This document shows positions 23,368-41,793 of a DNA stretch of 64,000 nucleotides, piece by piece. The DNA is from Paracoccaceae bacterium. GTDB taxonomy: Bacteria; Pseudomonadota; Alphaproteobacteria; Rhodobacterales; Rhodobacteraceae. The position numbers and the translations under genes are program-made. Each line of letters starts with the position of its first letter. The first letter of the stretch is position 1. The notes under the pieces were generated by a model. It saw only the letters and a list, made by a program, of their open reading frames with translations. It had not been told where the DNA came from and ran no database searches. Location: positions 1 to 64,000 of the forward strand of contig JAQWQJ010000102.1 in NCBI GenBank assembly GCA_029244725.1, given 5' to 3'.

Positions 23368-23409
23368 TTGCGCTGATCGCATGCTTGCAGTTGGTAGCCA
23401 AGCGCGGGC

Positions 23410-24129
23410 CTAAGCCATCAGATAATCGCTAACGATGCTATTAAACAGGTCAGTTTTTTCCAAGTGTGGCGCATGTGCACAATTTGGGATGACCGCCAAG
23501 CTTGCCTTTGAAATCGACCTCCACAATTGCTCAGTTTGATCCCAAGAATAGGTGCGATCGCTGTCGCCCCAGATCACCAGCGTTTTGGCATCTAATTTCG
23601 GTAAATGCGTGCTGCCGCTCCATTTGTTCATCGCGTCCAAGCCTGAAAGGATAGCTTTCATGCTTGCCCGTTCTGCTATTTTTGCGCAGCCCTCATATGC
23701 GGTGTCATTCTCTCGATCCAAAAACCAAGTCGCGGAAATACGGCGCGCAGTTGCGGGGGCGCCGTCAGCTATCGCGCGGTCCTTTGAGGTTTGGATTGTT
23801 TCAAACCTACCGGGCAATACGCCCTGTGCGCCTGTTCCGTAGAGCACCAAACGTGCAACGCGTTCAGGGGATTTCGCAACCATCTCTTGAGCGATCATGC
23901 CCCCCATCGAATGTCCGACAAGGTGAAATTGATCCACGCCACGGTCGGTTAGATGTTCCAGAACCCAATCTGCGTAGTTTTCAATCGTTTGAAACGCGTC
24001 CAATTCCCCGTTTTCACCAAACCCAGGCAAATCGACCGCGATGATCGGCGCGTCGCCAAACGCGTCAGTCTGTGCGTCCCATTGCGCGCTGCCGCCCATA
24101 AAGCCATGAACAAAAACAACAGGGATCAT
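23410..24129 (-). CDS. Alpha/beta-fold hydrolase
   Basis: A 239-residue cytoplasmic protein with the nucleophile elbow GHSMGG (Ser at about residue 95), the oxyanion-hole segment VHGFMGG, an aspartate in IWGDSDRT and a histidine in NCAHAPHLE, which form a complete triad. Close families are carboxylesterases, enol-lactone hydrolases and haloperoxidases. Its ATG overlaps the permease stop as ATGA, so it is the last gene of the betaine-type transporter operon and may hydrolyse an ester or amide of the imported compound. Confidence 0.85.
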   Translation of the reverse strand: MIPVVFVHGFMGGSAQWDAQTDAFGDAPIIAVDLPGFGENGELDAFQTIENYADWVLEHLTDRGVDQFHLVGHSMGGMIAQEMVAKSPERVARLVLYGTGAQGVLPGRFETIQTSKDRAIADGAPATARRISATWFLDRENDTAYEGCAKIAERASMKAILSGLDAMNKWSGSTHLPKLDAKTLVIWGDSDRTYSWDQTEQLWRSISKASLAVIPNCAHAPHLEKTDLFNSIVSDYLMA

Positions 24130-25679
24130 TTGCGTCCGCCTTGGACAATCCGGTCAAGGATCATTGCGCAGAATAGGATTGAGAAGCCAGCTAGGATACC
24201 TTGGCCAACGTTGGCGTATTGCAGCGCCTCTAGCACGTCCTCGCCAAGTCCTTTGGCCCCGATCAAGGATGCAACCACTACCATCGCAAGCGAAAGCATG
24301 ATGGTTTGATTGATACCTGCGCGTATCGACGGGCTGGCCAACGGTAAGTCAACTTTGGTCAGCAAGTACCATTTGTTGGCTCCAAAACTGATTGCAGCTT
24401 CACGCACGCTTTCAGGCACACCACGCAAACCCAACACGGTTAAACGCACGACCGGAGTTCCGCCAAAGATCATTGTTGTCACAACAGCGGCAGGTTTGCC
24501 CGTCCCAAAGAACGCGATGACTGGGATCATAAAGACAAAGGCTGGCATCGTTTGCATGAAATCCATAATCGGTTGGATAAACGCATAAAACCGTTTGCGA
24601 CGTGCGGCGAACATTCCCAATGGAATTCCGATCAAAATTGACAAACAGGCCGCTGTTCCCAACAGGGCCAGCGTCGTCATTGCTTTTTCCCAAAACCCTA
24701 ACAGCCCCATGTAAGATAGGAATGCGCCGGAATAGATGGCCATGCGCACACCCGCGGTCAACCAAGTAAGCAGGATGATAAGTGCAGCAACCACGATCCA
24801 CGGCGTGCTGACAAAGACCAATTCAAGTGCGTCCAACATAAGTCGAATGAAATAGGTGATCGCATCAAACAGTGCCTCACCATTCAGCACGGCCCAATTG
24901 AAGAATGCTTCTACGCGGTCGATGCTACCCAAGCGAATATCTGGGTCAGTTGGAAAGTCGCTCAGTACGGAATAATACCCCGGAAAAGAGTAATGCAGCA
25001 TTGCTGCGGCAACGATAAGAATCATGAATATTGCGCTAAATACAATCTGCGCGACAGGCATGCCGAAGCGAACTGCTGGATCGGATAACCAGTCAGAAAA
25101 ACGAGCCTCGAGCGCCCAGTTGGCGACCAAGGATTGCGCAATTTTCACTATCACTAGGATCGCAAAGCCTGTCAGAGCAATCGTGGGACCTTCAGCTGCA
25201 AGCGCAGCGGCTTCGTCTCTGATGCCGCCGATGTTAGCTTCAAGCGAGTCCACAGTGCGCCTGTAGACGTCGACCTTGTCCGAACCGGTTTCAATCGCCG
25301 AGGCAAGTTGCTGCTTTCGCAGTTCAAGTGTGCCTTCGATTGAGGCAATCCGAACCATAGCGTCTGCTGCAAGGTCGCCGAACAAACCACGGGCGATCTG
25401 AACAAAGGCCAAAGATTCTATGATTAAAAATGGAAGTGCCCAACTCCAAAGACCACGTCCACCAAACCAGATCGGGCCAAACAGTCCCGCCATTGCATTA
25501 AATGTCGCGGTAAAGCTGGCTGATGCACCAATCTTATCGAAGATCGCGATATAGTAATCAGGCTTAGTGCGCACGAATGTACGAATATTGCCTCGACGCT
25601 CTTCGGCGTATGCCATGGCGGCTTCGGACGAGGTATCTTCTAGCGGGTTGACGCCCAGGTCTGCATTCATATCGGTCAT
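24126..25679 (-). CDS. Glycine-betaine/proline-type ABC permease with long N-terminal extension (ProW-like)
   Basis: A 517-residue membrane protein. The last 230 or so residues are a ProW/OpuAB permease core, with the coupling loop VRLTVLGLRGVPESVREAAISFGA. The first 280 residues are an extension: two or more hydrophobic segments flanking a predicted coiled stretch around residues 120-175, then another hydrophobic pair. E. coli ProW is about 350 residues. Overlaps of four bases join it to both the ATPase and the hydrolase genes. The transported compound is probably a quaternary amine or similar zwitterion. Confidence 0.82.
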   Translation of the reverse strand: MTDMNADLGVNPLEDTSSEAAMAYAEERRGNIRTFVRTKPDYYIAIFDKIGASASFTATFNAMAGLFGPIWFGGRGLWSWALPFLIIESLAFVQIARGLFGDLAADAMVRIASIEGTLELRKQQLASAIETGSDKVDVYRRTVDSLEANIGGIRDEAAALAAEGPTIALTGFAILVIVKIAQSLVANWALEARFSDWLSDPAVRFGMPVAQIVFSAIFMILIVAAAMLHYSFPGYYSVLSDFPTDPDIRLGSIDRVEAFFNWAVLNGEALFDAITYFIRLMLDALELVFVSTPWIVVAALIILLTWLTAGVRMAIYSGAFLSYMGLLGFWEKAMTTLALLGTAACLSILIGIPLGMFAARRKRFYAFIQPIMDFMQTMPAFVFMIPVIAFFGTGKPAAVVTTMIFGGTPVVRLTVLGLRGVPESVREAAISFGANKWYLLTKVDLPLASPSIRAGINQTIMLSLAMVVVASLIGAKGLGEDVLEALQYANVGQGILAGFSILFCAMILDRIVQGGRK

Positions 25680-26730
25680 GATACTTCTGTTCCTTCGATC
25701 ACTGTGCGCAACAAATCCGCGCGGGTGATAATACCGGCATCTTGACCATCCGCCTGAACCACAATCGGATTATCATCGTCGATCGCGATGTTGATAAGTG
25801 TGCTTAGTGTTTCGTCTTTGTTGACGTGTTTGACATCCGTGGGCAGCGGCCCGTGGGCGTCGATGTATGTCTGTATTGGCTGCATCACCGCATGGGCATG
25901 CACGACCTTAAGACGAGAAATGCCCGCCACGAAATCGGCAACGTAATCGTCGGCGGGATTCATCACGATATCCTCAGCGGTGCCAATTTGGATCATTTTT
26001 CCGTCCCTCATGATCGCAATCCGGTCGCCAATGCGCACAGCCTCATCAAGATCATGGGTGATGAAAATTGTCGTCTTTTTCAAAATCTTGCTCAGACGAA
26101 TAAATTCGTCCTGAAGTTGGCGGCGGATCAGCGGATCAAGCGCCGAGAACGGCTCGTCCATCAACAACACATCTGGGTTTGCGGCCAAAGCACGGGCAAG
26201 TCCAACACGCTGTTGCATCCCGCCTGAGAGTTCATGCGCAAACTTTGCGCCCCATGCGCCCAGTTCGACGATATCCAAAATCGCAGCAGCCTGACGCATG
26301 CGTTCATTTTTGGGGATTTGGCGGATTTCCAACGGCATGGCAACGTTGTCCAACACAGATCTATGCGGCATCAATGCGAAGTTCTGAAAGACCATGCCAA
26401 TTTTTTGATTTCGGAATTTTTGAAGATCGCGAACGCCCAATCCCATGACGTCTATGCCCTCAATTTCAATCTTGCCGGCCGTCGGCTCTAACAAGCGATT
26501 GAAGTGACGAACGAGGGTAGATTTGCCGCTACCCGACAATCCCATGATGCAAAAATTTCCCCTCGGTTCACAGAAAGGCTTACGTCGGCGACACCGACAA
26601 CAGCTCCGTACTCTTTGAGAATTTCAGCTTTGGTCAAACCGCGTTCTTGTACGGCTTTTAAGGCGTCACTCGATCGCGCACCAAATATTTTCCAGACGTT
26701 GGATATTTCAACGACGGTGTCCTGAGCCAT
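25676..26730 (-). pseudogene. Glycine-betaine/proline-type ABC ATPase (ProV-like), one-base frameshift before Walker A
   Basis: Codons from ATG 26730 give the ProV N-terminus (VEISNVWKIFGARSSDALK, then VGVADVSLSVNRGEIF). The frame then breaks. The remainder reads in another frame from MGLSGSGKSTLVRHF, with LSGGMQQRVGLARALA, LLMDEPFSALDP and a C-terminal CBS-like regulatory part. Adding one base to the A5 run at 26551-26555 (T5 on the coding strand) restores FCIMGLSGSGKST, the normal sequence. So the gene is either a recent pseudogene or, quite likely, has a homopolymer miscall. An internal start at 26545 would lose the first beta sheet. If intact it would drive the transporter with the permease (4-base overlap) and ProX. 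Confidence 0.85.
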
Positions 26731-26764
26731 CTCGGTTCTCGATTGAATAGGGGGAAAAGGGGTT

Positions 26765-26793
26765 GCGGCACCAATAAACTATACTGGTGCCGC
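26765..26793 (-). terminator. Intercistronic stem-loop between proX-like and proV-like genes
   Basis: GCGGCACCA and TGGTGCCGC form a perfect 9-bp stem with an 11-base loop. On the - strand it follows the binding-protein stop by 17 bases and is trailed by AACCCCTTTT. It is probably a partial terminator or mRNA-protecting hairpin that lets the binding protein be made in excess over the ATPase and permease. Confidence 0.6.
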
Positions 26794-26809
26794 GATGGTT
26801 GGCGCAGAC

Positions 26810-27775
26810 TTATAGGCCGAGCATTGCGTCGACGCGGTCAGAGTTTGCCTCGATCCACGCTTTCGCGGCATCTGCAGGGTCCATTCCATTCGCAGAAATC
26901 TCGAATGCCAGACCACTTACGTCGTCAGCTGTAACCGAGAAGTTTGCAAAGAACTCGGCAATCGCGGGAGAACGACCTTCGAGTGAGTTGGACCATGCAA
27001 TCTGCACGTTCTTCAGAGCATCTTTAGTTGCAACAGAAGATTTTTCGTACCAATCCGCATCGTCAGATGGCTGAACCATCGTGTATTTAGCAGCGTCAAA
27101 TGTAGGTTCAGTCAACATTTCAACGTCAAACATGAACCAAACAGCATGTGGCTTATAGCAGTAGAACGCATAGCCTTCGCCTTTGGCGATGCTGTCTTTG
27201 ATGCGTGCTGTCTTAACGCTTTCTTCGGCCCGAATTGGCTCAATGAAATCAAGAAGCCCATAGTCGCGTGTCTTGACTTCGTTGACGTTGGCCGAGGCCC
27301 AGCCCGGCGCACCAATCCACAATTCGCCTTTGCCGTTGCCATCGCTGTCCATCAGGGCTGCGACGTCAGGGCGACCTAGGTCGGCGATGTCTGTGATGCT
27401 ATTGGCTTCGCCAAAGTCTTTGCTGACGCAAAAACCTTGGTTGCCTTCATATGGGTTGGTCGACAGCGTGACAGATCCAGCTCCGTCTACATATTTGTCG
27501 GTAAAGCTTTGCTGGTTAGGCAACCAGACGTCAGGGTGTACGTCGATATCGCCTTTGCCCTGATCCATCGCTTGGAAGATCGTAGCGTTGTTTCCTGGCA
27601 CATATTCAACTGATCCGCCGATACGCGATGTAACGATCTCACCCAGCAGATGGCCGATGGCCTGAGCGCCGGTCCACGATGGCAGTCCGATTTTTACTTC
27701 TTCTGCGGCAAATGCCGGTAGGGCGAAAACGCCAACGGCCGCAGCCATTGCGTAGGTTTTCAAATTGGTTTTCAT
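26810..27775 (-). CDS. Glycine-betaine/proline-type substrate-binding protein (ProX/OpuAC-like)
   Basis: A 321-residue periplasmic protein. The signal peptide (MKTNLKTYAMAAAVGVFA) ends near LPAFA-AEE. The mature part has the OpuAC fold with KIGLPSWTGAQAIGHLL, VWLPNQ, GAPGWASANV and several tryptophans and tyrosines that could form an aromatic cage for a quaternary ammonium or sulfonium group. AGGAAGAAAATATG lies at the start. It is first in the operon and divergent from a LysR gene, with a T-N11-A dyad between them. Glycine betaine, choline or DMSP are possible ligands; the sequence does not choose. Confidence 0.87.
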   Translation of the reverse strand: MKTNLKTYAMAAAVGVFALPAFAAEEVKIGLPSWTGAQAIGHLLGEIVTSRIGGSVEYVPGNNATIFQAMDQGKGDIDVHPDVWLPNQQSFTDKYVDGAGSVTLSTNPYEGNQGFCVSKDFGEANSITDIADLGRPDVAALMDSDGNGKGELWIGAPGWASANVNEVKTRDYGLLDFIEPIRAEESVKTARIKDSIAKGEGYAFYCYKPHAVWFMFDVEMLTEPTFDAAKYTMVQPSDDADWYEKSSVATKDALKNVQIAWSNSLEGRSPAIAEFFANFSVTADDVSGLAFEISANGMDPADAAKAWIEANSDRVDAMLGL

Positions 27776-27952
27776 ATTTTCTTCCTCTGTTGGATCGCGC
27801 CGTTTTTAGCGTCAATTATTTCTTTAGTTTGAAGCGTTCTGGTTGAACGCCTTTTGGAAAATGTGTGAGTTAGCGCGCCCAATGGATGCGGCGATCTTCG
27901 TGATCCAAGCTTAGTTCGAGAGTTTCCGTCGGGGAAATTCGAACATATCATT

Positions 27953-27977
27953 AAACTATTCGGAATTTGCATAGTTT
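27953..27977. promoter_or_regulatory. LysR-type T-N11-A dyad between lysR and proX-like genes
   Basis: AAACTAT and ATAGTTT are perfect 7-bp inverted arms separated by exactly 11 bases, which gives the T-N11-A pattern of LysR-type operators. It lies 47 bases before the LysR start in the 248-base divergent region and is the likely recognition site of the LysR protein for autoregulation and control of the transporter operon. Confidence 0.65.
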
Positions 27978-28023
27978 GGCGTTACCCTAAGTGACCCAAC
28001 GTGTTTTGAGAGGTGATTCCGGG

Positions 28024-28908
28024 ATGGATTTAAACTGGCTGCGTGATTTCGAGTGCCTTGCTCGGGTCCTAAACTTTACCCGAGCCGCGGAAGAGCGGAA
28101 CATTACTCAATCTGCATTTAGCCGCAGAATCAAAGCATTGGAGATTTGGGTAGGCCTGCCATTGATTAACCGTGCAACCTATCCAATTCAGCTGACAGAA
28201 GCTGGCCAGCAATTTCTTCCGGTCGCTCTTTCGGCCGTCGCGCAACTCGCTGAGACGCGGCAAGCCTTGAGGGACGCGGACAGTAGCGGCCAGCGATTTG
28301 TGCGTTTTTCAGTCCTGCACACAATTTCAGTTAACTATTTGGCTGGTCGGATCGAAGATCTTCAGCAGGATATTCCCAATCTGCGCACACGCGTGATCTC
28401 TGATTCTCTTAGCTCATGCTGTGAATTACTGATCGAGGGCGCGGTCGATATTATGCTGTGCTATTATCACCCTGCGGTTTCGCCACGCATCGATGACGCT
28501 GCATTTGCACGCAAGGATTTGCTGACAGACCGTCTAATTCCGGTTGCTGCCAAGGCCCAAACTGAACAGCATGGTTGGAGTCTGGACAATCAATCAGGTC
28601 CGCGAATTCCCTACTTGGCCTATGAACATTCTTCGTTTCTGGGGATGGTGGTGGACAACATCGTTGGCCAAAAGAAAATGAATGTCGAAACCGTTTACGT
28701 GGATGCCTTGGTAGAGGCCATTAAGCGCAGACTTTTAAACGGAAGCGGCTTCGCGTGGATGCCGGAAAGCTCAATAGAGGCTGAGCTGGCGTCTGGTGAA
28801 CTTGTACCCATAGGAGACGCAACTTGGTCCGCACCAATGACCATTGCGGCCCTTGCCAACCCTGCAACATTCGCCCCACAAACACAGGTTTTGTGGGGCC
28901 TGCTGTAG
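28024..28908 (+). CDS. LysR-family transcriptional regulator
   Basis: A 294-residue regulator. The N-terminal winged helix reads MDLNWLRDFECLARVLNFTRAAE with the recognition segment ITQSAFSRRIKALE; the remainder is the effector-binding domain. The start at 28024 is the usual family beginning and has GAGAGGTG upstream; the frame is open to 27991. It is divergent from the betaine-type transporter operon and convergent with the CuyA-like gene five bases away, so either could be its target. The effector is unknown. Confidence 0.88.
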   Translation: MDLNWLRDFECLARVLNFTRAAEERNITQSAFSRRIKALEIWVGLPLINRATYPIQLTEAGQQFLPVALSAVAQLAETRQALRDADSSGQRFVRFSVLHTISVNYLAGRIEDLQQDIPNLRTRVISDSLSSCCELLIEGAVDIMLCYYHPAVSPRIDDAAFARKDLLTDRLIPVAAKAQTEQHGWSLDNQSGPRIPYLAYEHSSFLGMVVDNIVGQKKMNVETVYVDALVEAIKRRLLNGSGFAWMPESSIEAELASGELVPIGDATWSAPMTIAALANPATFAPQTQVLWGLL

Positions 28909-28913
28909 TTTTC

Positions 28914-29927
28914 CTAGACGTTAACCCAGCGCTTTGCATGGTCGAATGCGAAATCGTATCCGCCCAACGCAGCCGCTCCGCCTGTGTGTAAAAACACAAC
29001 GCGTTCATCTTTGAATGTGCCCTTGCGTGCCAGATCAATTAGGCCCGCCGCCCCTTTGGCGGAATAACAAGGGTCAAGCAAAAGGCCCTCAAGCTCGGCG
29101 AACATTTGGATCGCTTCAATGCCACTTTGTGTCGGCAAGCCATAACCGTCGCCGACGTAGTCAGTGTTGGCCATCACATCTTCGCGCTTGACGATGCCAG
29201 GACATCCCAGTTTCTCTGCTGTTTTGCAGGCCAAGTCGTAGACCATTTATTCTTGCTTTGGTTGCGGCGCACGTGTGCCGATACCCAAAACTGGAATTTG
29301 CGCATTCATTGCACATAGGCCCGTCACCAGACCTGCCTGTGTTCCGGATGACCCTGTCGCATGCACCAGACGATCAATCTTTAGGCCGCGATCATTGGCC
29401 TGAGACACAAGCTCAAAAGCTGCATTAACATAACCAAGCGCACCAGTCGGATTGGACCCGCCACCAGGGATTACGTACACTTTATGCCCTTTTGCGCGCA
29501 TCTTTTCGGCCGCAATTTCCATCTCGCCTGGCATGTCATGACCGCCAGGGAATTTTTCAGTCGTGGCACCGTGGAGGTGATCGAGAAGAACGTTGCCGTT
29601 CGTATTGTAATTGCCATCCTGATAGCCAGTACGATCCTCTAACAGGATGTGGCATTTCAAACCAAGTTTCGCAGCAAACGCTGCGGTTTGACGGCCATGG
29701 TTTGTCTGTGTTGCGCCTTGGGTCATGACCATGTCAGCGCCTTGCTCAATCGCCTCGGCCATCAAGAACTCTAGCTTTCGGGTCTTATTACCCCCGGTCG
29801 ACATTCCGGTGCAGTCATCCCGCTTGATCCATAGCTCAACACCAAGCTCTTTAGACAGGCGCTCCATCGGCTCGAGTGGGGTGACAAGGTGAGCGAGGTG
29901 AACGCGAGGAAAGCGGGCGAGATGCAT
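28914..29927 (-). pseudogene. cuyA: CuyA-like L-cysteate sulfo-lyase / D-cysteine desulfhydrase with an in-frame TAA
   Basis: From ATG 29927 the frame gives a PLP fold-type II lyase ([18 protein letters not shown] with the PLP lysine, [16 protein letters not shown]) up to PKQE. A TAA at 29247-29249 follows, then the same frame continues to the normal C-terminus ([17 protein letters not shown]) at 28914. The total of 337 codons is the usual length. As far as recalled, CuyA proteins read PKQEE at this point, so a single GAA-to-TAA change would explain the stop. CuyA cleaves L-cysteate to pyruvate, sulfite and ammonia in marine sulfonate degradation; the close relative D-cysteine desulfhydrase is an alternative. 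The lost C-terminal third is part of the PLP site, so a truncated protein should be inactive. Confidence 0.82.
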
Positions 29928-30139
29928 GGGGTAACTCCTAAATGTCCTTCACCCTAATTATCTGCGCCGACTTTCTATTCCCAATGCTAATTTCGCATCA
30001 ATTTATGCGTCAACCTCACGTGCCTAATCTGGGGTAATGTGCAAAACTTGCGCGCCAAAACTCACTTAGTTTCGAACAATTTCGGTTTCAAAATTGCCTA
30101 AAGCACGTTTCCTTGGTGGTTTGTTTTGCTGGATTGAAT

Positions 30140-31108
30140 TCAATACCCGCGGCTTGGATCGACGATGTTGAACAAATCCTCACCCGCTATCCATAGTCTC
30201 AGGTTTCGCAAAAACAGATCAAACGACGCCCTTTCCCAATCCGCGCTCACCGACGAGCAATGTGGCGAGATAATCACGTTTTCCAACGCCCATAAGAGGC
30301 TATCAGTTGGCAGAGGCTCTGTCTCAAAAACGTCAAGTGCGGCGGCAGCTACATGCCGAGTTTCAAGTGCAGCATGCAAAGCTTTCTGGTCCACCACGCC
30401 ACCGCGTGACACATCCGCTAGAACGACCCCCGGTTTCATTGCGGCGATCTCGGCCTCTCCGATCAATCCACGGGTCGATGGGATGAGGGGCGTCGAAATT
30501 GCGATAAAATCTGCGCGTGGCAAAAGCGACGGCAATGCGTCCGCTGAATGAACCTCGCCAACGTGATCCATAACTTGGGGGCGCGCACGCGTTCCCAGCA
30601 CATTCATGCCAAATGCCTTAGCGCGTTCTGCCACAGCCCGACCGGTATGACCCAACCCAATGATCAACAGTGTCTTGCCGGCAAGCGGTCTGACCGTGCG
30701 GGCATTCCAAACGCGCGCAGCCTTGTCCCGTTGCAGCCCAGAAACATCCAGGCTGAAGTGTAAAAAACCGCCGATGATGTATTCTGCCATCATTCCTGCA
30801 GCCACGCCCGCCGCATTACTGACTACCGTATTCAAAGGATCCCAATCGCCGAGATGATCGGTTCCGGCCCCGCCATTCGCAACCCACTTCGGACCACCAG
30901 CCCCAAACAGTGCATCGTGTGGAAAACCGGGTGTGCCTGCGAAACGGACCGAATAGACGATCTCGGGTTTGTAGCTTTCGATGAGCGCAGGCAGGTCTTC
31001 GTATCTATTGCACTCTCGAAAATCAGCGCGGGGATATGCGTCGCGTAGCTGTTGTGCCATCTGTTCAGTTTCCGCGTTGTGCAGCACGATGCGTGGGGTG
31101 TCAGACAT
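30140..31108 (-). CDS. D-2-hydroxyacid dehydrogenase (NAD-dependent)
   Basis: A 322-residue enzyme of the D-isomer 2-hydroxyacid dehydrogenase family. It has the Rossmann motif GLGHTGRAVAERAKAFGM, and the catalytic arginine (SRGGVVD), glutamate (ETEPLP) and histidine (SPHCSS). It interconverts a 2-oxo acid and a D-2-hydroxy acid. The ATG at 31108 lies inside the end of the upstream MmgE/PrpD gene (8-base overlap) and is preferred over the open frame to 31132. It is the last gene of the six-gene operon beginning at 38008. Confidence 0.87.
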   Translation of the reverse strand: MSDTPRIVLHNAETEQMAQQLRDAYPRADFRECNRYEDLPALIESYKPEIVYSVRFAGTPGFPHDALFGAGGPKWVANGGAGTDHLGDWDPLNTVVSNAAGVAAGMMAEYIIGGFLHFSLDVSGLQRDKAARVWNARTVRPLAGKTLLIIGLGHTGRAVAERAKAFGMNVLGTRARPQVMDHVGEVHSADALPSLLPRADFIAISTPLIPSTRGLIGEAEIAAMKPGVVLADVSRGGVVDQKALHAALETRHVAAAALDVFETEPLPTDSLLWALENVIISPHCSSVSADWERASFDLFLRNLRLWIAGEDLFNIVDPSRGY

Positions 31109-32447
31109 TGTTTGCCTCCACCGGTTCGCCAACCAGCTGGATCAATTCCACAAAGGTCGCATCCGGTTGCCTTAGACGTTCCCGCATAGCCCAAAGCTTG
31201 CTGAGGCGCGGTTCAGGCAAAACTGCCGCCATAGTGCGAAATTTAGTTTCGATTTCGGTAAGTTGCATTGGGGCCTCTGGTCCACCACGCGCATGAACGT
31301 CTCCGGATGAAAGGCTTGTGCCATCCTTTAGTGTCACGGTCAGATCTGACCATCGTCCTTCGGGGAAACGGTCGCTGTGGCGTGCATCCTCTTGCACTGA
31401 AATTCGGGGGAGCACGTCCGCCACGTCAGGGTCGCTCAGACCTGCGCCAGTGATTTGATCTGGTCCTATCCGGCCATGCACAAGCAACACAGAAAGCGCG
31501 AAAGCCAGCGAATACTGCGCCTGCGTCGTTGTTGAAGGAATGCCACGATAGAGTGCTGCAGCCTCGGCGAACGTGTTTACGTTTATCGATGTGACATCGT
31601 CGGCTGAGAACTCGCGCTGCTGCATAAGCCCTGAAAGCGCGTCCAATGAGGCATGGGCCCAGCGGCATATCGGATAGGGTTTGATGTAGTTGCGTTCAAT
31701 CGTCCAAACCGTGCCAAGGTCATCCCAGTAGGGGCTAGCATCGTCTGCCTCGGCAGTGATTGCTGGGGCCCCTTTGAATCCGGAACCCGCCATCAGCGCC
31801 GCCATTGATCCGACCATTGCCCCCATGCCTGACCCATCGTGCAGCATTGTTGGGTTTGCGATCTCGCGCATCATTTGGCTGCGTGGCCCGTAGTATTCTG
31901 CGATTCCAAGCGCTTGGCGCAAGTGCTCGTTTGAGGCCCCCTGCAAATGACAACCAAGCGCCGCAACGCCGAGTGCATTCCACGCACCGGATGTGTGATA
32001 ATCGCTGACCGTAGCGTGCAACGCGATGCCAGCCCGCGCTGCAACTTCGTACGACATCGCCAATGTGGTTAGCGCCTCTTTTGCCGAAAGCGTTGGTTGC
32101 GCTTCAGCAAAAGCGAGCAACGCGGGAACCACGGCGCACCCAATATGGCCTTTGGTTGGGTTGTACCCATCGTGGGCATCAAGGTTATCGATCTGAGTTG
32201 CGGCAGCAAAAGCAGCACCGGGGATAGACGCCTTACGCCCGTCAAACAGCAAAGTCGCAGCGTGTTCGGGCGTACCGGCCCCGTGGAAAGCAAATGCATG
32301 ATCGCGCGCGATGCGTCCTGCCTCCATGTTGGCAGCACCGGCAGCAACGCCCAGCGTGTCGATCAACAGCAAGGCCGCCATATCCAGCGCAGTTTCGGGC
32401 ACGTCTTGATTGGTCAGAACAAACTCAGCAATTCGGTCGAAATCCAT
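31101..32447 (-). CDS. MmgE/PrpD-family protein
   Basis: A 448-residue protein of the 2-methylcitrate dehydratase/cis-aconitate decarboxylase/iminodisuccinate epimerase family. Family landmarks are LLLIDTLGVAAGA, a NLDAHDGYN segment and GHIGCAVVPALLAFAEA. The family adds or removes water, or epimerises or decarboxylates small tricarboxylate-like compounds. The precise reaction is not readable here. The ATG at 32447 forms TGATG with the stop of the isomerase gene upstream, and its end overlaps the dehydrogenase start. Confidence 0.85.
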   Translation of the reverse strand: MDFDRIAEFVLTNQDVPETALDMAALLLIDTLGVAAGAANMEAGRIARDHAFAFHGAGTPEHAATLLFDGRKASIPGAAFAAATQIDNLDAHDGYNPTKGHIGCAVVPALLAFAEAQPTLSAKEALTTLAMSYEVAARAGIALHATVSDYHTSGAWNALGVAALGCHLQGASNEHLRQALGIAEYYGPRSQMMREIANPTMLHDGSGMGAMVGSMAALMAGSGFKGAPAITAEADDASPYWDDLGTVWTIERNYIKPYPICRWAHASLDALSGLMQQREFSADDVTSINVNTFAEAAALYRGIPSTTTQAQYSLAFALSVLLVHGRIGPDQITGAGLSDPDVADVLPRISVQEDARHSDRFPEGRWSDLTVTLKDGTSLSSGDVHARGGPEAPMQLTEIETKFRTMAAVLPEPRLSKLWAMRERLRQPDATFVELIQLVGEPVEANNV

Positions 32448-33187
32448 CAACGTGCCCCTTCCAAAAGCAGTCCGTATCCCGGCAAAGCCTCGTTGAACCC
32501 TGCAAGTTGCATTGCCTGAAAAATCATGGCTTGGTTTGACGTAATCACCGGCTTGCCCACTGCTTGTTCCAACCTCGCGATGATTTCGACGCTACGCATG
32601 TCTGTGCACGACAATACGATTGCGGTCGCATCTGGGTGATCAGCAGCCAAGCCCAACTCAAACACGGTGTCTGGGTTTAGTTCCCGTTGACCATAGTTAT
32701 CCAAAGCAGTGCCAACCTCGGACCGAGAAACGGTTTCGATACCGCTTTCGCCAAGAAAGCCAACGGCCATGTCGTTGATCGCCGAAACATAAGGGGACGC
32801 AAAGCCGATACGGTCTGCGCCAAGGGTCTTAATCGCGTGGACCAACGCACCAGCAGCCGTCACAGTTTCAGCCCCGCTGTCTGCTTTGATGCGCGCCGCA
32901 AGCTCTCGATCAAACGTCGGTCCGTGGGTCAGTGTCGCCGAAGTGCAGCCATACAAGATCACGTCGGGGTTTACGCCCTGCAACAGATGTAAAGGCCCGT
33001 CGAGGTCAGAGGCCCCCAGCCCGTGCATTTGTTCAGCGTCGGGGATTTCTTCCTGATCGTACCCGCCCATGCGGGCGAAATGCATCGACACACCTTCTGG
33101 CCAAAGAAGTGTCATATCAGGCTCAAGATTGGTGTTTGTGAATGGGACTAATATTCCGAAACGGGCGCGTCCTCGTGTCTGTTTCAT
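32447..33187 (-). CDS. Asp/Glu racemase-fold enzyme, maleate isomerase / arylmalonate decarboxylase-like
   Basis: A 246-residue protein. FGILVPFTNTNLEPD at the start and two cysteine motifs, YGCTSATLTHG near residue 75 and LSCTDMRSVE near 190, match the maleate cis-trans isomerase/hydantoin racemase superfamily. Maleate isomerase and Asp/Glu racemases use two cysteines, while arylmalonate decarboxylase keeps only the second, so an isomerase or racemase is favoured here. The ATG at 33187 overlaps the aminotransferase stop as ATGA and is preferred over upstream starts. Confidence 0.83.
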   Translation of the reverse strand: MKQTRGRARFGILVPFTNTNLEPDMTLLWPEGVSMHFARMGGYDQEEIPDAEQMHGLGASDLDGPLHLLQGVNPDVILYGCTSATLTHGPTFDRELAARIKADSGAETVTAAGALVHAIKTLGADRIGFASPYVSAINDMAVGFLGESGIETVSRSEVGTALDNYGQRELNPDTVFELGLAADHPDATAIVLSCTDMRSVEIIARLEQAVGKPVITSNQAMIFQAMQLAGFNEALPGYGLLLEGAR

Positions 33188-34266
33188 GACGTTTCTTCCT
33201 TCTTCCAGCTTTCCAGCAGTCCAGCGGCGGTGTTCAGATCCTCGGCGCTTGCGATCGTGGCGCGCAGACAATGGGCAAGTCCTGCCCCGTTTTGCGGTCG
33301 CAGGAAAGCGCCCTCAGCTTTGAGATAGGCATCCACGCTTTTAACTTGTTCAGCAGAGGCAAATCGGATCAGAACGAAATTGGTGAAACTTTCTGGAACG
33401 TCAAATTCGGCACTCATCAAGCGATCACGAAATCGGTCACGCAACTGTGCCGTCATATCACACGTTTCGCGCATGTAGGTTTGATCTATGATCGCAGCGC
33501 TGGCTGATGCCTGACCAGCAAGGGATATGTTGTTGGGGTTCATGATCTTGCGAACCTCGCGTGCGATTGCAGGGGGAAACAAGCCCCAGCCAACACGCTG
33601 ACCAGCAAGTCCGTAAGCCTTGGACAACGTGCGTAGAACGACTGTGTTGCCCCTTTCGACCAAATCAAACATCGGCGCATCTCGATGGTCAGCGAATTCA
33701 CCATAGGCTTCGTCAATCACCAACAGAATGTCGCTTGCCAAGCCATCGCGAAGACGAACAAGTTCTTGGCGCGATATAAAAGTGCCGGTTGGATTTCCGG
33801 GGTTGGCAACGAAGACAATTCTGGTGTCGGGCTGAACCGCATTCAAAAGATTGTCCACGCAAACGCGCCCATCCTCTTCGGGCGCTGTGTCAAAGCGTGC
33901 CCGTGCAAGTGCGGTTGCTGTGCGAAAAAACGGATACGCATGCGCGGGCGCTAGTACTGCGTTTTTGTCGTCAGCATAGGCTTGCGTCAGACAACCGATT
34001 AACTCCATCGAGCCGTTGCCGCAGAGTATGCCCTCTGCAGGGATATCGTGCAATTCGGACAAGGCTTCGCGCAACACGACCCATTCCGGATCAGGATACA
34101 TATGTGCAGCCTGAACGGCAGCAGCCGCGGCTTTAATTGCAAGCGGACTGGGCGGGCGTAGACTTTCGTTTTGCGATAGCGAAATAAGGCTTTTGCCAGC
34201 CGGCACATCTAGCTGCGCCAAAGCGTAAGGGGACATGGCACCGATGTGCTGAACAGGGCGGATCAT
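33184..34266 (-). CDS. Class I/II aminotransferase, histidinol-phosphate aminotransferase-like
   Basis: A 360-residue fold-type I PLP enzyme. It shows the HisC-like SQNESLRPPSP start, ANPGNPTG, VIDEAYGEF with the PLP-ring aspartate, and LSKAYGLAGQRVGW with the PLP lysine. Being inside a catabolic operon, it is more likely to transaminate a pathway amino acid than to make histidine. Its start overlaps the HyuB stop by four bases and its stop overlaps the isomerase start by four bases. Confidence 0.86.
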   Translation of the reverse strand: MIRPVQHIGAMSPYALAQLDVPAGKSLISLSQNESLRPPSPLAIKAAAAAVQAAHMYPDPEWVVLREALSELHDIPAEGILCGNGSMELIGCLTQAYADDKNAVLAPAHAYPFFRTATALARARFDTAPEEDGRVCVDNLLNAVQPDTRIVFVANPGNPTGTFISRQELVRLRDGLASDILLVIDEAYGEFADHRDAPMFDLVERGNTVVLRTLSKAYGLAGQRVGWGLFPPAIAREVRKIMNPNNISLAGQASASAAIIDQTYMRETCDMTAQLRDRFRDRLMSAEFDVPESFTNFVLIRFASAEQVKSVDAYLKAEGAFLRPQNGAGLAHCLRATIASAEDLNTAAGLLESWKKEETS

Positions 34267-35912
34267 AATTTGACCCCGTAAATATTTTTAGCGACCTGTG
34301 TGCTTATTAAGCCTTCTTCAAGGTCACGCATTACCGCTTCGCGATCTCGTTCTTTTGGGTCGCCAAAGCCGCTGCCACCTGGGGTTTCAAAAATCAGCGT
34401 TTCACCCGCCTTTACCCGAACCTCGCCCTTGCCAGGCAGGTCGGTGCCGTCTTCGCCAAGTCGAATTCGACCAGCAGCGCCCTGACCGCCGCCAAAGCGC
34501 CCAATCGCTGGGTTTTTAACCCGCTCGACAGACAGAAACAGCATGAAATCTTCATCAACCGAGGATCGTATTTCGATATGTTGACCCAAACCGCCGCGGG
34601 TACGACCTGCACCGCCACTATCAGGCTTCAGCTCGCGTCTAGTGATTAAGACAGGCGCTACGGCTTCCGTCGTTTCGACCTGTGACCCCCAAACGCCCGA
34701 AGGAAACGCAGTGGCCGACAAGCCGTCTAATGTCGGATGCGCACCCGTGCCGCCGCTGAACACCAACTCTAACGCGAACTGTTCGTGCCCCTTTGAGACC
34801 GCCTCTGGTGCGTGGCGAAGTGGAAGGTCATACATACACGAAGCCCCCTCGGCTGGAATCACGTCTGGCAGAGCTTGCGACAGGCAACCGTAGACAAGGT
34901 CAGGTGTCATCTGCCCAAGTGTATGCCGCATAGCGACAGGCGCAGGCGACTGAGCATTCAAAATACAATTGCGCGGTCCGACGACACGAAACGGGGCAAG
35001 CGAGCCAGCGTTGTTAGGAATGTCCGGTCCAATGATGCAACGCAGCGCAAAGACCGAATAGGCCGTCGCGTAGTTAAGAGGTACGTTAATGCCCTTGTTT
35101 GAAAGGCCCGAGGTCCCGTCGAAATCAAGCAGAATGTGATCTTCAGCTATGGTCAAGGCAGCATGTAGATCAATCTCATTTTCATAGCCATCCACCGTCA
35201 AAACGTTGTGCCAAGTCCCTTTTGGCAGGTTTGCGATTTCCTCAATCGTTCCTTTGTAAGAGGTGTCGATGATGTAATCGGCCAATGCGTCCAAATGGTC
35301 GATGCCGAACTCTGCCATCATGTCGGCAAGGCGTTTGGCCCCTGCTTCGCAACAAGCGATGAGTGCATAAATATCGCCTTCGTTTGCCACTGGTTCGCGT
35401 GAGTTGGCCTTGACGATCTCCATCAAGAACGCATTCAGCGTACCAGCATCCATCAGTTTGCACGGCGGGATCAAAAGCCCTTCGTCGAAAATGTCCGCGC
35501 CCTCTGGCCCCATCCCCAAGCCACCCAGATCCACAAGATGTGACGTGCAGGACGTAAAGCCAACGACGCGTTCCTTGTAGAAAACTGGCATCATCAACAA
35601 AAAATCATTGAGGTGGCCCGAAGCGATCCACGGGTCGTTCGTCATATAGATGTCACCGGGCTTCATTTCTTGAATTTGAAAACGTCCGCGCAGGGTCTTT
35701 ACCGCCTCGGCCATGGTGTTGATGTGACCCGGTGTGCCGGTGACGGCTTGGGCCAACATACGTCCCTGAAGATCGAATATGCCCGCAGAAATATCCCCGC
35801 ATTCGCGCACGATGGGTGAAAACGCGGCACGGATCAGCGCTTGGCCCTGTTCCTCAACGACGGCTAAAAGCCGGTTCCACATAACCTGTAACCGGGTGTC
35901 TGTCATACTCAT
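34263..35912 (-). CDS. hyuB: HyuB-type hydantoinase B / 5-oxoprolinase subunit
   Basis: A 549-residue protein of the hydantoinase B/oxoprolinase family. Typical parts are ECGDISAGIFD, YMTNDPWIASGHLNDFLL, DLGGLGMGPEGADIFDEG and the glycine-rich end FETPGGSGFGDPKERD. With HyuA it forms an ATP-dependent amidohydrolase acting on cyclic amides (5-oxoproline, N-methylhydantoin, lactams); relatives include acetone carboxylase. It starts within the end of HyuA (4-base overlap). The substrate cannot be read from the sequence. Confidence 0.9.
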   Translation of the reverse strand: MSMTDTRLQVMWNRLLAVVEEQGQALIRAAFSPIVRECGDISAGIFDLQGRMLAQAVTGTPGHINTMAEAVKTLRGRFQIQEMKPGDIYMTNDPWIASGHLNDFLLMMPVFYKERVVGFTSCTSHLVDLGGLGMGPEGADIFDEGLLIPPCKLMDAGTLNAFLMEIVKANSREPVANEGDIYALIACCEAGAKRLADMMAEFGIDHLDALADYIIDTSYKGTIEEIANLPKGTWHNVLTVDGYENEIDLHAALTIAEDHILLDFDGTSGLSNKGINVPLNYATAYSVFALRCIIGPDIPNNAGSLAPFRVVGPRNCILNAQSPAPVAMRHTLGQMTPDLVYGCLSQALPDVIPAEGASCMYDLPLRHAPEAVSKGHEQFALELVFSGGTGAHPTLDGLSATAFPSGVWGSQVETTEAVAPVLITRRELKPDSGGAGRTRGGLGQHIEIRSSVDEDFMLFLSVERVKNPAIGRFGGGQGAAGRIRLGEDGTDLPGKGEVRVKAGETLIFETPGGSGFGDPKERDREAVMRDLEEGLISTQVAKNIYGVKL

Positions 35913-38008
35913 GTTTCGCCCTCTGATCTACGCGTGAGCCAAATGTTCAGACCACCATCCACATGTGCCGAAAAATCTGCGCTAACGAATGTCGTGGTTT
36001 GCGGTTCGATTATCAGCGCAGGCCCAGAAACGCTGTCACCCGGCTTTAGGGCATCGCGGTCAAACACCCCAGCTTCACGCATTTTGCCGGTCACATCACA
36101 AAGAATGGTGCGGTATTCCGGTGCCATAACGGGTTTTTTCTGGCTGATTTCGGGATATTGCTCAATTGGCTTGGCCGCTGACGAAACGTCCAGCGACCAA
36201 TTCAAAATTTCAATCGTCATACCTGGCACCGATCGGCTGAATTGACGGCTGTACTCTCTTTCAAAGGCAAGACGCATATCATCAATGTCGGCAGCCTGCA
36301 GCGGGCGGTCAGGAAGCGTTATCTCGATCTCGTGTCCTTGTCCGTGATAGCGCATAAACGCCTTTCGCCGCATGACCAGCGGCCCCTGAGGGGCTCCGGC
36401 GCGGACCACGGTTTCGGCCTCAGAAATCATTTCATCGTAAAAAACATTCAGTCCTTCCAAGTCTAGGTTTTCGAGCGTGGCGTATCTGGTCCGGATGATT
36501 TCAAAACTCACCGGAGCATATAAAAAGCCGACAGCTGACCCGACGCCGGGATCACGCGGGATCAAAATGCGATTCACTTGGGCGCGCCTTGCAACGCGCG
36601 TCGCATGCAAAGGACCGTTGCCACCGAAGGCGATCATAACCCGCGCCCCTAAATCCTTGCCAGACTCGACCGCATGCATCCGCCCCGCTGCGGCCATGTT
36701 TTCGTCTACGATTTCACTAACACCAAAGGCTGCATGCTCGGCGCTGAGGTTTTTGACCTTACCTATCCTGTTGAGAAGGGATTCTTGCGCGGCGTTCACG
36801 TCAATCTTCAATCGCCCCTCCGCAAAGCGTCCCGGTTCGATCAATCCCTGCACGACGTCGGCATCGGTTACCGTCGGCTCTTTTCCGCCCTTGGCAAAAG
36901 CGGCCGGACCGGGCTCAGACCCTGCGCTTTCTGGACCGACCCGTAAGCGTCCGAGCCGATCAACCTGCGCAATTGAACCTCCGCCCGCCCCAATTTCAAT
37001 CATCTCAATCACAGGAATACGCACCGGCATTCCCGAACCCTTTATGAACCGCGCAGCACGGGCGATTTCAAACTTGCGGGCGGTCTGTGGGCGGAAATTG
37101 TCGATCAGGCAAAGTTTGGCCGTAGTGCCGCCCATGTCAAAGCTAAGAACCGCACTTTCCTCAGTCTCCGCAGCAATCCGAGCGGCAAGAATGGCCCCAC
37201 CGGCGGGTCCTGATTCAACCAGTCTGATCGGCAATCGAGCGGCCGTTTCCATCGTAGTCATACCGCCGCCAGCGGTCATCATCAGGATCGGACAGCCAAG
37301 TCCGTGGCCTGAAAACAGCGTTTGGAAGTCGACCAGATATTTAGCCATCTGCGGCTGAATGTAGGCGTTGGCGATAGTGGTAGACAGCCTGTCAAACTCT
37401 CGCGCTTCCGGGCTGACTTCATGTGACAGCGAGATAACAAGATCTGGAAGTGCGGTTTGCAAAAGCGTTTTCAAATGCAACTCGTGCACGGGATTGGCGT
37501 AAGCGTGCAACAAACAAACAGCCACCGCTTCGGCACCGCAATCAGCCAACGTGTCCACCAGCGCTGCAACCCCAGACACATCCAAGGCTGCAAGCTCTTG
37601 TCCGCGCGCATCCAACCGCCCGCCGATCGTAAATGAACGAGAGCGGGGAACAATCAGGTCTGGCTTGACCAAGTTTATATCGTACTGGCTGTAGCGTCGC
37701 TCATACGCGATCTCAAGAATATCGCGGAAGCCCTCGGTTGTGACCGTGGCCACCTTTGCCCCACGACGCTCAATCAACGCATTGGTGGCAAGCGTCGTCC
37801 CATGAATGAACCCTCCAACCTGCGACCAAGGTATCGCGGCTGATTTTAACACGCGGTTAACACCTTCAAGTGCCCCAAGCGCTGGGTTATCTGGCGTTGT
37901 GGGTGTCTTGGCAGTGGCCACTATTCGCGCCTGTTCATTGACCAGAACGGTATCAGAAAACGTACCACCGATATCGACCGCAAGACGGAATTCGGGCTTG
38001 TTGTGCAT
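35909..38008 (-). CDS. hyuA: HyuA-type hydantoinase A / 5-oxoprolinase ATPase subunit
   Basis: A 699-residue protein with an N-terminal actin-like ATPase fold: LAVDIGGTFSDTVLV (phosphate 1), SFDMGGTTAKLCL (phosphate 2) and AFGGNGPLHA (adenosine). HyuA phosphorylates the carbonyl of the cyclic amide with ATP so that HyuB can hydrolyse it. It is the first gene of the operon hyuA-hyuB-aminotransferase-isomerase-prpD-like-dehydrogenase, and a 355-base region upstream should hold the promoter. Confidence 0.9.
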   Translation of the reverse strand: MHNKPEFRLAVDIGGTFSDTVLVNEQARIVATAKTPTTPDNPALGALEGVNRVLKSAAIPWSQVGGFIHGTTLATNALIERRGAKVATVTTEGFRDILEIAYERRYSQYDINLVKPDLIVPRSRSFTIGGRLDARGQELAALDVSGVAALVDTLADCGAEAVAVCLLHAYANPVHELHLKTLLQTALPDLVISLSHEVSPEAREFDRLSTTIANAYIQPQMAKYLVDFQTLFSGHGLGCPILMMTAGGGMTTMETAARLPIRLVESGPAGGAILAARIAAETEESAVLSFDMGGTTAKLCLIDNFRPQTARKFEIARAARFIKGSGMPVRIPVIEMIEIGAGGGSIAQVDRLGRLRVGPESAGSEPGPAAFAKGGKEPTVTDADVVQGLIEPGRFAEGRLKIDVNAAQESLLNRIGKVKNLSAEHAAFGVSEIVDENMAAAGRMHAVESGKDLGARVMIAFGGNGPLHATRVARRAQVNRILIPRDPGVGSAVGFLYAPVSFEIIRTRYATLENLDLEGLNVFYDEMISEAETVVRAGAPQGPLVMRRKAFMRYHGQGHEIEITLPDRPLQAADIDDMRLAFEREYSRQFSRSVPGMTIEILNWSLDVSSAAKPIEQYPEISQKKPVMAPEYRTILCDVTGKMREAGVFDRDALKPGDSVSGPALIIEPQTTTFVSADFSAHVDGGLNIWLTRRSEGET

Positions 38009-38363
38009 TAAAATGACCCAAAGGTAGAATTGTCAGAAAGCATAGGAAATTTCGGATAGGCAAAAAGCCTGATCCAATGTCAGACGACGAGATCACAACC
38101 GGTTGCCCGACGCCCCAAATTGATCTTGATTGCTTGTGTCGACATTTGTCTGCTTTCGCTCGATCTAACAATCGGATGCTGCCCGAGCGTATGATCAGCT
38201 GTCAACAAAATACTATGTTTGCCGGGCATAGCCTATGTTTAGAAATTGCCGTGAAGCAGTCGTTGAACCACTGCTAAATGCAACGGTACATTTGCAGCCT
38301 ACTCGCCCGCAACTATCGCCGATTTTGGCGGATAAAATAGCCCAATGTGCTACGAAAGTTGGC
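38009..38363. other. Intergenic region upstream of the hyuA operon
   Basis: This 355-base stretch separates the hyuA start from the end of the hemY-like gene, both on the - strand. It should hold the hyuA promoter and the hemY-like terminator. No convincing gene, long palindrome or terminator hairpin with a T run was found by eye. Short open frames on both strands have no recognisable product. Confidence 0.6.
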
Positions 38364-39821: not shown

Positions 39822-39829
39822 CTTGGGAC

Positions 39830-41014: not shown

Positions 41015-41055
41015 CCAATCATTCTCCCCGCGATCACGCCCAATTATCTATCTAG

Positions 41056-41793
41056 TTATGCTCGGTCGCCGTCACAACCGGACCCGACCTTATTCAAAAA
41101 TTCTTTAACCAAATCTAACATAGCCCCTGCATTCGGGGCATCTGCTACCATCATCCTGCGCTGCAGCATAAGGTCAACCCGTTCAGCAACGTTTGGGCTA
41201 ATTACCGCCAACCAAATTGCCGCATCGGTTGAGACATGTTCACCAAAAAGCGCCGCGCTTCGAGGTGAAAACAATGCCGCTAGCACGGGACGCTCAGACG
41301 CCAGAGCTGTGAAAAACGCCGGGTCGGGCAACAATGCTTTCTGGCGGTAAACCACACACTCTTGGCAATTCACGCCATAATCACGCAAGCGTTGTACTAC
41401 ATCGCCCAATCCATGCTCACCCCGATAATGAATTACGGATCCGTTAAGATTTGCCTTCGAAACAACGTCGACAACCGCATCTGCATTGCCACCACAATCA
41501 ATAGCCACGAGCCCTAACTGACTCGCCATCTCAGCGGTTTGCGGGCCCACACAATATGCGGTTCCAGTGAACCCATTGTCGACCCTATTCCAGCCCAACA
41601 CTCCGTTTTGCGAAGTAAAAATGACCGCTGCAACTTCATCATCTGTGGCTTCAATTTCTAGCCATTCGATCTCTTGAAGCGGGGATATTACAACTTCAAT
41701 CGCGTCGCCAAGCATATCCTTAACGGCGCCGGCAAACCTCTCGGAACCGCTCAAAGGGCGGGTGAGCAAAAGTATAGGTCTTGCATCTCTCAT
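41056..41793 (-). CDS. hemD: Uroporphyrinogen-III synthase
   Basis: A 245-residue protein that closes hydroxymethylbilane to uroporphyrinogen III in haem biosynthesis. The sequence shows the weakly conserved HemD pattern: [14 protein letters not shown] at the start, [37 protein letters not shown] and VVYRQKA. It starts the - strand block hemD-Mic60-hemY and is divergent from tsaD with a 70-base gap. hemC is not in view. Confidence 0.85.

Follow-up and report, generated by a model that had tools for sequence, protein, structure and literature searches.

ATP-dependent hydantoin utilisation is carried out by a known set of proteins, HyuA, HyuB, HyuC and the racemase HyuE. In the degradation of caprolactam by Pseudomonas jessenii, as described in PMC6061476, the lactamase CapAB was proved to depend on ATP and an aminotransferase then takes the freed amine; the family chemistry described there is that HyuA phosphorylates the lactim form and HyuB hydrolyses. 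The succinamopine region of the Ti plasmid pTiEU6 carries hydantoinase A/B and mmgE genes, and the opening of an opine lactam was proposed by its authors (PMC6733357). Here we describe six genes on the minus strand, at positions 30140-38008 of a 64,000-nucleotide stretch (the window) of contig JAQWQJ010000102.1 from a Paracoccaceae bacterium, coding for HyuA- and HyuB-like subunits, a HisC-like aminotransferase (AT), a two-cysteine Asp/Glu-racemase-fold isomerase (ISO), an MmgE/PrpD-family protein (PrpD-like) and a D-2-hydroxyacid dehydrogenase (DHDH). We class this operon as a putative variant of ATP-dependent cyclic-amide catabolism, and our preferred, though tentative, reading is that it serves the breakdown of a nitrogen compound that contains a cyclic amide of the lactam, hydantoin or imide type or gives rise to one once demethylated.

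The family names that an initial annotation had given to the six proteins were each borne out by Pfam, and the overlaps that it had listed at the five junctions (ATGA three times, a one-base TGATG, and eight bases, ATGTCTGA) were all read back from the sequence. No NCBIfam model was shown at its cut-off for any of the six proteins (for AT, among the best 25 of 65 models). An ISO profile made from a 12-row alignment was searched against genome contigs, yielding 168 relatives of which the best 80 loci were kept and counted, with gaps of up to 600 bases allowed in a contiguous run; ISO, being the query, is present by selection, but HyuA, HyuB and AT are not. The same six-gene order was found in 26 of the 80 loci (5 of which reach near the locus end), the first four genes alone, HyuA-HyuB-AT-ISO, were found in 36 (4 near the locus end), and four-base overlaps recur (in L058 of Ruegeria halocynthiae, for example, HyuA lies at 5180-7279, HyuB at 7276-8925, AT at 8922-10004 and ISO at 10001-10744), so the operon is more than a chance arrangement. 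Three of the 36 four-gene runs stop at a contig end, 27 show neither PrpD nor DHDH in view, and six have PrpD and/or DHDH further along (L110, L121, L126, L130, L131 and L134). The remaining loci hold the four genes with DHDH and no PrpD (7, 1 near the end), HyuA-HyuB-AT-ISO-PrpD cut before DHDH (2), a HyuB-AT-ISO-PrpD fragment (1), HyuA-HyuB-ISO-DHDH without AT (3), AT-ISO-PrpD-DHDH without HyuAB (2), or fragments too short for judging (3). Counted anywhere in the 80 loci, AT is present in 76, PrpD (on either strand) in 36 and DHDH in 45, and by order the loci fall into Rhodobacterales (64), Hyphomicrobiales (6) and Rhodospirillales (2), with 8 unplaced. The stable core is thus HyuA-HyuB-AT-ISO, with PrpD-DHDH as a movable pair. 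The initial annotation had the six proteins made as one set, and would have been refuted had no relative kept their order; that order is found in relatives and the genes do overlap as a set in the window, but the conserved core is four genes and not six.

A search with the PrpD-like protein in 394 genomes of the same family gave 111 matches at E values up to 1e-60, and 20 stretches were compared, namely a second copy of the cluster in the same genome (on contig C71, see below) and 19 high- or middle-scoring PrpD relatives. HyuA-HyuB-AT-ISO was present in 11 of these and the six-gene order in 9 (DHDH of L038 by tblastn only), the other nine stretches having the PrpD relative amid other neighbours. 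These two surveys overlap, at least 8 contigs of the 80-locus set being identical in length to contigs of the genome set and taken as the same (L060 and G079, for instance). Across the whole class, 385 genomes gave seven ISO-profile matches at E values up to 1e-70, including that of the window, and in four of the other six places ISO had recognisable HyuA and HyuB neighbours (weakly in L157, at 50 and 49%). Two Tateyamaria loci (L098 and L101) have AT-ISO-PrpD-DHDH without HyuAB, and the sole HyuB match in those genomes (at E values up to 1e-20) lies within a fused HyuA-HyuB frame elsewhere, its HyuB part being 60% identical; this would be expected of an enzyme that remains in demand although its gene lies apart from those of its partners, and the fused protein may thus serve the same pathway. 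The variant without AT, HyuA-HyuB-ISO-DHDH, was seen in L107, L113, L136 and L160, and L107 has divergent SoxB/SoxA-like genes. Eleven plasmid records matched AT at E values up to 1e-60, all from Leisingera or Ruegeria, and five of the six plasmid regions inspected had HyuA-HyuB-AT-ISO annotated. In the sixth, L140 from a Leisingera methylohalidivorans plasmid, the gene table, which is incomplete, lists only ISO and an aminotransferase frame of excessive size (10648-12840), so that HyuA and HyuB seem to have been lost or merged. Distant plasmid relatives of ISO (33-36% identity, four regions) had unrelated neighbours and gave no clue to function.

HyuA matched Pfam PF05378 (Hydant_A_N, 158.5 bits with a gathering score of 25.2), PF01968 (Hydantoinase_A, 246 against 22.9) and PF19278 (45.1 bits) and HyuB, which has a further in-frame ATG six bases after its start, matched PF02538 (Hydantoinase_B, 481.7 against 26.8); both belong to the hydantoinase/oxoprolinase superfamily, all three Pfam domains being above gathering score. 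Their best solved relatives were 7hk5, named as an N-methylhydantoinase (361.8 bits for HyuA and 189.7 for HyuB), and 6yra, named as a 5-oxoprolinase (309.9 for HyuA with chain A and 158.5 for HyuB with chain B). They fell short of the NCBIfam equivalog models for caprolactamase (CapA 426.2 and CapB 199.8 bits, with a cut-off of 1000 each). AT matched Pfam PF00155 (177 bits) and the solved structure 4wbt (132.2 bits) and remained below the cut-off of the hisC model TIGR01141 (235.5 bits, cut-off 276.55); the SK motif of the pyridoxal phosphate (PLP) lysine is kept in the alignment of relatives. By its sequence AT is a HisC-like enzyme of its own subgroup.

ISO belongs to the Amdase family (PF17645, 85.6 bits against 25.9, the domain being confirmed) and scored below the cut-offs for EutA (TIGR02990, 115.7 against 318 bits) and arylmalonate decarboxylase (NF052327, 76.5 against 225) and below the gathering score of PF01177 (24.7 against 31). 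Two cysteines of catalytic type, C81 and C194, are both present in 12 of 12 aligned rows and in at least 98% of 95 rows (which include some duplicates). Both cysteines align in the profile matches of ISO to the maleate isomerases 2xec (99.2 bits) and 4fq7 (91 bits); one solved chain in the profile alignment has alanine at the second cysteine site. Arylmalonate decarboxylase has a single cysteine in its active site, the one at the second position. Since both cysteines are kept and align with those of the maleate isomerases, the two-cysteine rule points to isomerase or racemase chemistry for ISO and not to decarboxylation.

The PrpD-like protein matched PF03972 (110.2 bits) and PF19305 (108 bits) and scored far below the two NCBIfam 2-methylcitrate dehydratase PrpD models (23.6 against 950 and 18.1 against 575 bits). 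Its predicted model (pLDDT 90.8) has the family fold, Foldseek giving a TM score of 0.81 to iminodisuccinate (IDS) epimerase 2hp0 and 0.78-0.81 to cis-aconitate decarboxylase chains, with TM 0.67-0.81 and identities of 16-21% over the 20 best chains, and IDS epimerase is also its closest solved relative by sequence. The histidine and aspartate motifs align with those of IDS epimerase and cis-aconitate decarboxylase, and PTMLHDG replaces the TK-x-x-H lysine motif of these enzymes, invariantly in 21 of 21 aligned rows (19 of 25 listed frames, the window's protein and that of C71, L037), as judged by sequence alignment at about 20% identity; letters of the PTMLHDG type occur in at least 85-98% of 47 PrpD rows. 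The lysine of the TK-x-x-H motif has a catalytic role in both of those enzymes. On this alignment, the PrpD-like proteins form a subgroup without that lysine, which casts doubt on the hydration or dehydration step that the initial annotation had proposed, a step which found no positive support; the protein is more probably a distinct type of epimerase/isomerase or lyase than a 2-methylcitrate-type dehydratase. One stop lies inside the match in each of the PrpD relatives L015 and L030. DHDH is a member of its family (PF02826, 2-Hacid_dh_C, 165.1 bits; solved structure 4xa8, 141.4 bits) with the Arg-Glu-His site kept, the SRGG, EPL and PHC columns being at least 98% conserved in 57 rows.

From the gene set, families, conservation and neighbours, and from active-site residues read in alignments, we infer the reactions, their order and the substrate as follows. 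In several lineages and in the C71 copy, MttB and flavoenzymes like sarcosine oxidase or dimethylglycine dehydrogenase (DMGDH) would first strip N-methyl groups. HyuA would then use ATP to phosphorylate the lactim oxygen and HyuB would hydrolyse the ring, as is usual in their families; ISO may racemise the ring compound or the opened acid, or isomerise it between cis and trans; AT would take off the amino group, leaving a 2-oxo acid; DHDH may reduce that acid, or act in the reverse direction; and the PrpD-like protein would act on a di- or tricarboxylate-like intermediate. Ring opening and then transamination had also been the initial annotation's reading, which has a precedent in caprolactam degradation, where an ATP-dependent HyuAB enzyme is followed by an aminotransferase (PMC6061476); the order of the steps here is still conjectural.

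The demethylation step, which had no place in the initial annotation, was drawn from relatives and from the genome's second copy rather than from the window's own. On C71 (locus L037) a diverged ISO-AT-HyuB-HyuA cluster (identities 61, 49, 71 and 66%), with an oligopeptide-type binding protein behind HyuA, faces an arm of LysR, a Cys/Met-metabolism PLP enzyme, PrpD (54%), SoxB/D/A/G-like proteins, DHDH (52%) and MttB. The SoxA-like protein has a folate-binding GCV_T domain and is thus of the sarcosine-oxidase type, whereas the SoxD-like protein was named by position and length only and the SoxG-like protein by a GCV_T match and position. Further on lie an oligopeptide-type permease and ATPase, a class-V PLP enzyme and a RidA-like protein (by eye) and a DMGDH-like protein (by family match). 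The C71 copy (L037, L165 and L166) lies in a large catabolic stretch that includes a tripartite tricarboxylate transporter (by eye). The plan of C71 is repeated in L134 and on plasmid L141, and in a shorter version in L138 and L142, plasmids of Leisingera on which MttB and PrpD are present, and in L121 of Cochlodiniinecator piscidefendens. The operon of Pelagibius (L110) itself contains MttB, and there HyuA-HyuB-AT-ISO-MttB-PrpD-DHDH form one run followed by an OpuA-type transporter; MttB comes after ISO in L126, and in L160 HyuA-HyuB-ISO-DHDH-DMGDH-MttB form one run. Among 15 clusters in 14 genomes, MttB was found within 5 kb of 4 and within 10 kb of 5, compared to 0.51 and 0.8 expected (P = 0.0013 and 0.0007, values that, like the one at 3 kb below, are too small because the genomes are related); this control covers MttB only and leaves out the three weakest MttB rows. 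In a HyuB tree of 83 rows, from which 8 loci without a full-length HyuB frame were left out, one clade of 16 rows (SH-aLRT 99) unites the C71 type with most plasmid copies and has MttB in 8 of them, but MttB is found in other branches too, and the 13 changes over 16 linked rows mean that its linkage was not one inherited event (gains and losses being indistinguishable). Demethylation of glycine betaine is described in marine bacteria in PMC12478193, which also cites MttB-family betaine methyltransferases, and this makes an MttB-family step plausible.

Several observations weigh against a demethylating, ring-opening pathway. Within 3 kb, MttB was found at only 2 of the 15 clusters with 0.4 expected (P = 0.058), and the window's own 130-kb contig (C80) has no family match to MttB, SoxA or DMGDH. 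MttB is in only 11 of the 80 locus windows, and any of MttB, SoxA/B or DMGDH in 18. As the 14 genomes tested have 0-15 MttB, 0-6 SoxA and 0-14 DMGDH matches each, with SoxA and DMGDH genes common, a single demethylation neighbour means little. The transporters differ from locus to locus, a dimethylsulfoniopropionate demethylase (DmdA) lies 6.8 kb from the operon, and two of the class-wide loci, L155 and L156, have ISO (53 and 51% identical) without a recognised HyuA or HyuB. With these points weighed, the N-demethylation genes of several lineages and the C71 copy suggest methylated amines or betaines, perhaps from marine algae or invertebrates, as the most likely class of natural substrate. 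More specifically, and with less confidence, the operon may belong to an undescribed marine route for a quaternary-ammonium or N-methylated cyclic amide, in which demethylation by MttB and sarcosine-oxidase/DMGDH enzymes feeds HyuA-HyuB-AT-ISO and a PrpD-fold enzyme with an altered active site. If so, this would be a new biochemical role for the MttB family in aerobic Alphaproteobacteria and a new reaction of the MmgE/PrpD fold.

That the substrate is instead a non-methylated cyclic amide (such as 5-oxoproline or one of its derivatives, a cyclic dipeptide or a hydantoin with a substituent at position 5), with the demethylation genes as chance neighbours or a second route, seems unlikely but deserves serious attention: the nearest solved relatives of HyuA and HyuB bear the names N-methylhydantoinase and 5-oxoprolinase, no demethylation gene is in view in 62 of the 80 loci or at the window's copy, and an oligopeptide-type binding protein and MlrC-type peptidase stand beside six loci from metagenome-assembled genomes (MAGs). 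It accounts poorly for the recurrence of MttB in separate branches and inside the operon, and an N-carbamoylase is not among the six genes. Opine-type catabolism, in which an opine-like secondary amine would have its lactam opened by HyuAB and be acted on by the PrpD-like protein as an enzyme resembling IDS epimerase, is improbable; it draws on the proposed lactam opening and the hydantoinase A/B and mmgE genes of pTiEU6 (PMC6733357) and on IDS epimerase being the closest solved sequence, but the conserved lysine of that enzyme is absent, the C71 SoxA-like protein with its GCV_T domain is of the sarcosine-oxidase type, and no opine dehydrogenase was seen among the neighbours read by eye, no search having been aimed at one. 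Biosynthesis of a small molecule by the six genes is very improbable, since the dehydrogenase and aminotransferase could run in that direction but the ABC transporters, demethylation genes, two copies in one genome and plasmid copies better fit catabolism. A carboxylase of the acetone or acetophenone type acting on a ketone is hardly credible, for HyuAB shares that superfamily and matched acetophenone and acetone carboxylase chains, but HyuA did so at 210 and 159.3 bits compared to 361.8 to the lactamase-type chain, and the third carboxylase subunit is not among the six genes.

Narrower candidates were also rejected. A creatinine/N-methylhydantoin route would not need AT and ISO, and no creatininase-type or carbamoylsarcosine hydrolase was among the neighbours read (no dedicated search was made); a classical hydantoin operon would have an N-carbamoylase, missing from the six genes. 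For homarine, word matching in the open-licence literature gave no match of homarine with hydantoinase, and the titles and abstracts among the homarine matches listed do not name this gene set; for diketopiperazine hydrolases there was no fitting title among the matches listed.

The features of the window are given in Table 1. The LysR-family regulator is a possible regulator of the operon, and the OpuA/ChoXWV-type transporter, which stands 2.4 kb past the operon end with CuyA and LysR between, possibly serves the pathway; its NCBIfam scores are under cut-off (ProX 79.5 against 215 and choline permease 254.2 against 363 bits), and an OpuA-type transporter also stands beside L063, from Ruegeria conchae, and L110. 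OpuA-type and oligopeptide-type transporters are both known for betaines. In the gap upstream of HyuA a consensus scan gave one terminator-like site (38085-38067) and scored no promoter-like site, matches of either kind being no commoner than in shuffles, and no RNA family (Rfam) was found within 22000-42000. The first part of the split CuyA (226 amino acids, aa) corresponds to the initial two thirds of the CuyA model, scoring 363.6 bits (cut-off 450), and is followed by a 110-aa frame; an unbroken 337-aa CuyA-like frame occurs in L045. Genes for the subunits of sulfopyruvate decarboxylase and for sulfopropanediol dehydrogenase (HpsN) adjoin the cluster in L077 and L084 (by eye), which are among the Ruegeria loci with shared neighbours beside HyuA-HyuB-AT-ISO (L077, L078, L081, L082, L083, L084 and L124). 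A sulfonate route, which these genes and the split CuyA might suggest, was set aside as the genes beside L077 and L084 come from one Ruegeria group.

Table 1. Features of the window and fused frames of two relatives (positions are those of the window unless a locus is named).
Feature	Position	Strand	Evidence
HyuA-like subunit, hydantoinase/oxoprolinase A family, 699 aa	35909..38008	-	Pfam, PDB matches
HyuB-like subunit, hydantoinase/oxoprolinase B family, 549 aa	34263..35912	-	Pfam, PDB matches; ATGA overlap with HyuA
AT, HisC-like PLP fold-type-I aminotransferase, 360 aa	33184..34266	-	Pfam, NCBIfam, PDB; ATGA overlap with HyuB
ISO, Asp/Glu-racemase-fold isomerase, arylmalonate decarboxylase/maleate isomerase/EutA group	32447..33187	-	Pfam, NCBIfam, profile; ATGA overlap with AT
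MmgE/PrpD-family protein	31101..32447	-	Pfam, model, Foldseek; one-base TGATG overlap with ISO
DHDH, 322 aa	30140..31108	-	Pfam, PDB; 8-base overlap with PrpD
355-base gap upstream of HyuA, likely promoter place	38009..38363	-	sequence, pattern scans
D-cysteate sulfo-lyase (CuyA), directly downstream of operon	28914-29927	-	split by one in-frame stop
LysR-family regulator	27991..28908	+	Pfam PF00126 and PF03466
OpuA/ChoXWV-type quaternary-amine ABC transporter and alpha/beta hydrolase (substrate-binding 26810-27775, ATPase 25676-26545, permease 24126-25679, hydrolase 23410-24129)	23410..27775	-	NCBIfam; ATPase, hydrolase by eye
DmdA, dimethylsulfoniopropionate demethylase	22237-23367	+	553.8 bits, cut-off 410
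Thiamine pyrophosphate (TPP) enzyme beside DmdA	20199-21917	+	
Fused HyuA-HyuB frames, 1292-1294 aa, two Tateyamaria genomes	L161:10219-14103; L162:7284-11162	-; +	

Genes for reductive pyrimidine catabolism, a separate cyclic-amide pathway, were recognised by eye at 2876-13917 of the same window (N-carbamoyl amidohydrolase, dihydropyrimidinase, an ABC transporter and dihydropyrimidine dehydrogenase subunits). Elsewhere, 10 of the 80 loci have a gene for a DapA-like aldolase downstream in the same orientation, and a carbamoylase-like gene adjoins the cluster in L051 (by eye). The six-gene operon is surrounded by an MlrC-type peptidase and an oligopeptide-type binding protein in L090, L092, L093, L095, L097 and L119 (Silicimonas, Boseongicola and other Rhodobacteraceae MAGs), five of which have a DMGDH-like gene near the operon. 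On a plasmid of Ruegeria THAF33 (L137) the cluster is immediately preceded by genes for xanthine dehydrogenase, for urate hydroxylase and for a xanthine permease; a methylated-purine route was rejected, as such genes stand beside just one of the six plasmid copies inspected.

Marine Alphaproteobacteria are thought to turn over much of the methylated nitrogen of the ocean, and to our knowledge most members of the MttB, SoxA and DMGDH families in such genomes have no assigned substrate. A compact, conserved operon tied to some of these genes gives a short list for assay and clean targets for knock-out, the PrpD-like subgroup without the family lysine may carry out new chemistry, and if the substrate is an abundant algal or invertebrate metabolite, a missing route would be added to marine nitrogen cycling.

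Each of the protein families is known, but the combination, the demethylation link and the lysine-less PrpD group are undescribed in the literature searched: as the initial annotation had supposed, no identical assigned operon, and none described with this gene set, was among the open-licence literature matches listed (word matching, part of which would miss "N-methylhydantoinase"). Compared to the caprolactam cluster of Pseudomonas jessenii (PMC6061476), the locus shares a two-subunit cyclic-amide hydrolase of the HyuAB family with an aminotransferase, but that aminotransferase is HisC-like here and a subgroup II omega-aminotransferase there, and ISO, the PrpD-like protein and DHDH are extra. 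It is like the hydantoin utilisation set in having HyuAB with a protein of the Asp/Glu/hydantoin-racemase superfamily, and unlike it in that the six genes have no N-carbamoylase and ISO, which does not reach the gathering score of PF01177, falls in the Amdase/EutA/maleate-isomerase branch. The pTiEU6 succinamopine region likewise joins HyuA/HyuB with an MmgE gene in one catabolic region, and differs in its opine dehydrogenase and asparaginase genes and in having mmgE beyond further genes, the AT-ISO pair being unmentioned in the available part of PMC6733357. ISO resembles EutA and maleate isomerase in its fold and two-cysteine site (for maleate isomerase by profile alignment), but it is under the EutA cut-off and has other gene partners. 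The PrpD-like protein, finally, shares its fold and its aligned histidine and aspartate motifs with IDS epimerase, cis-aconitate decarboxylase and 2-methylcitrate dehydratase, and has PTMLHDG in place of the lysine.

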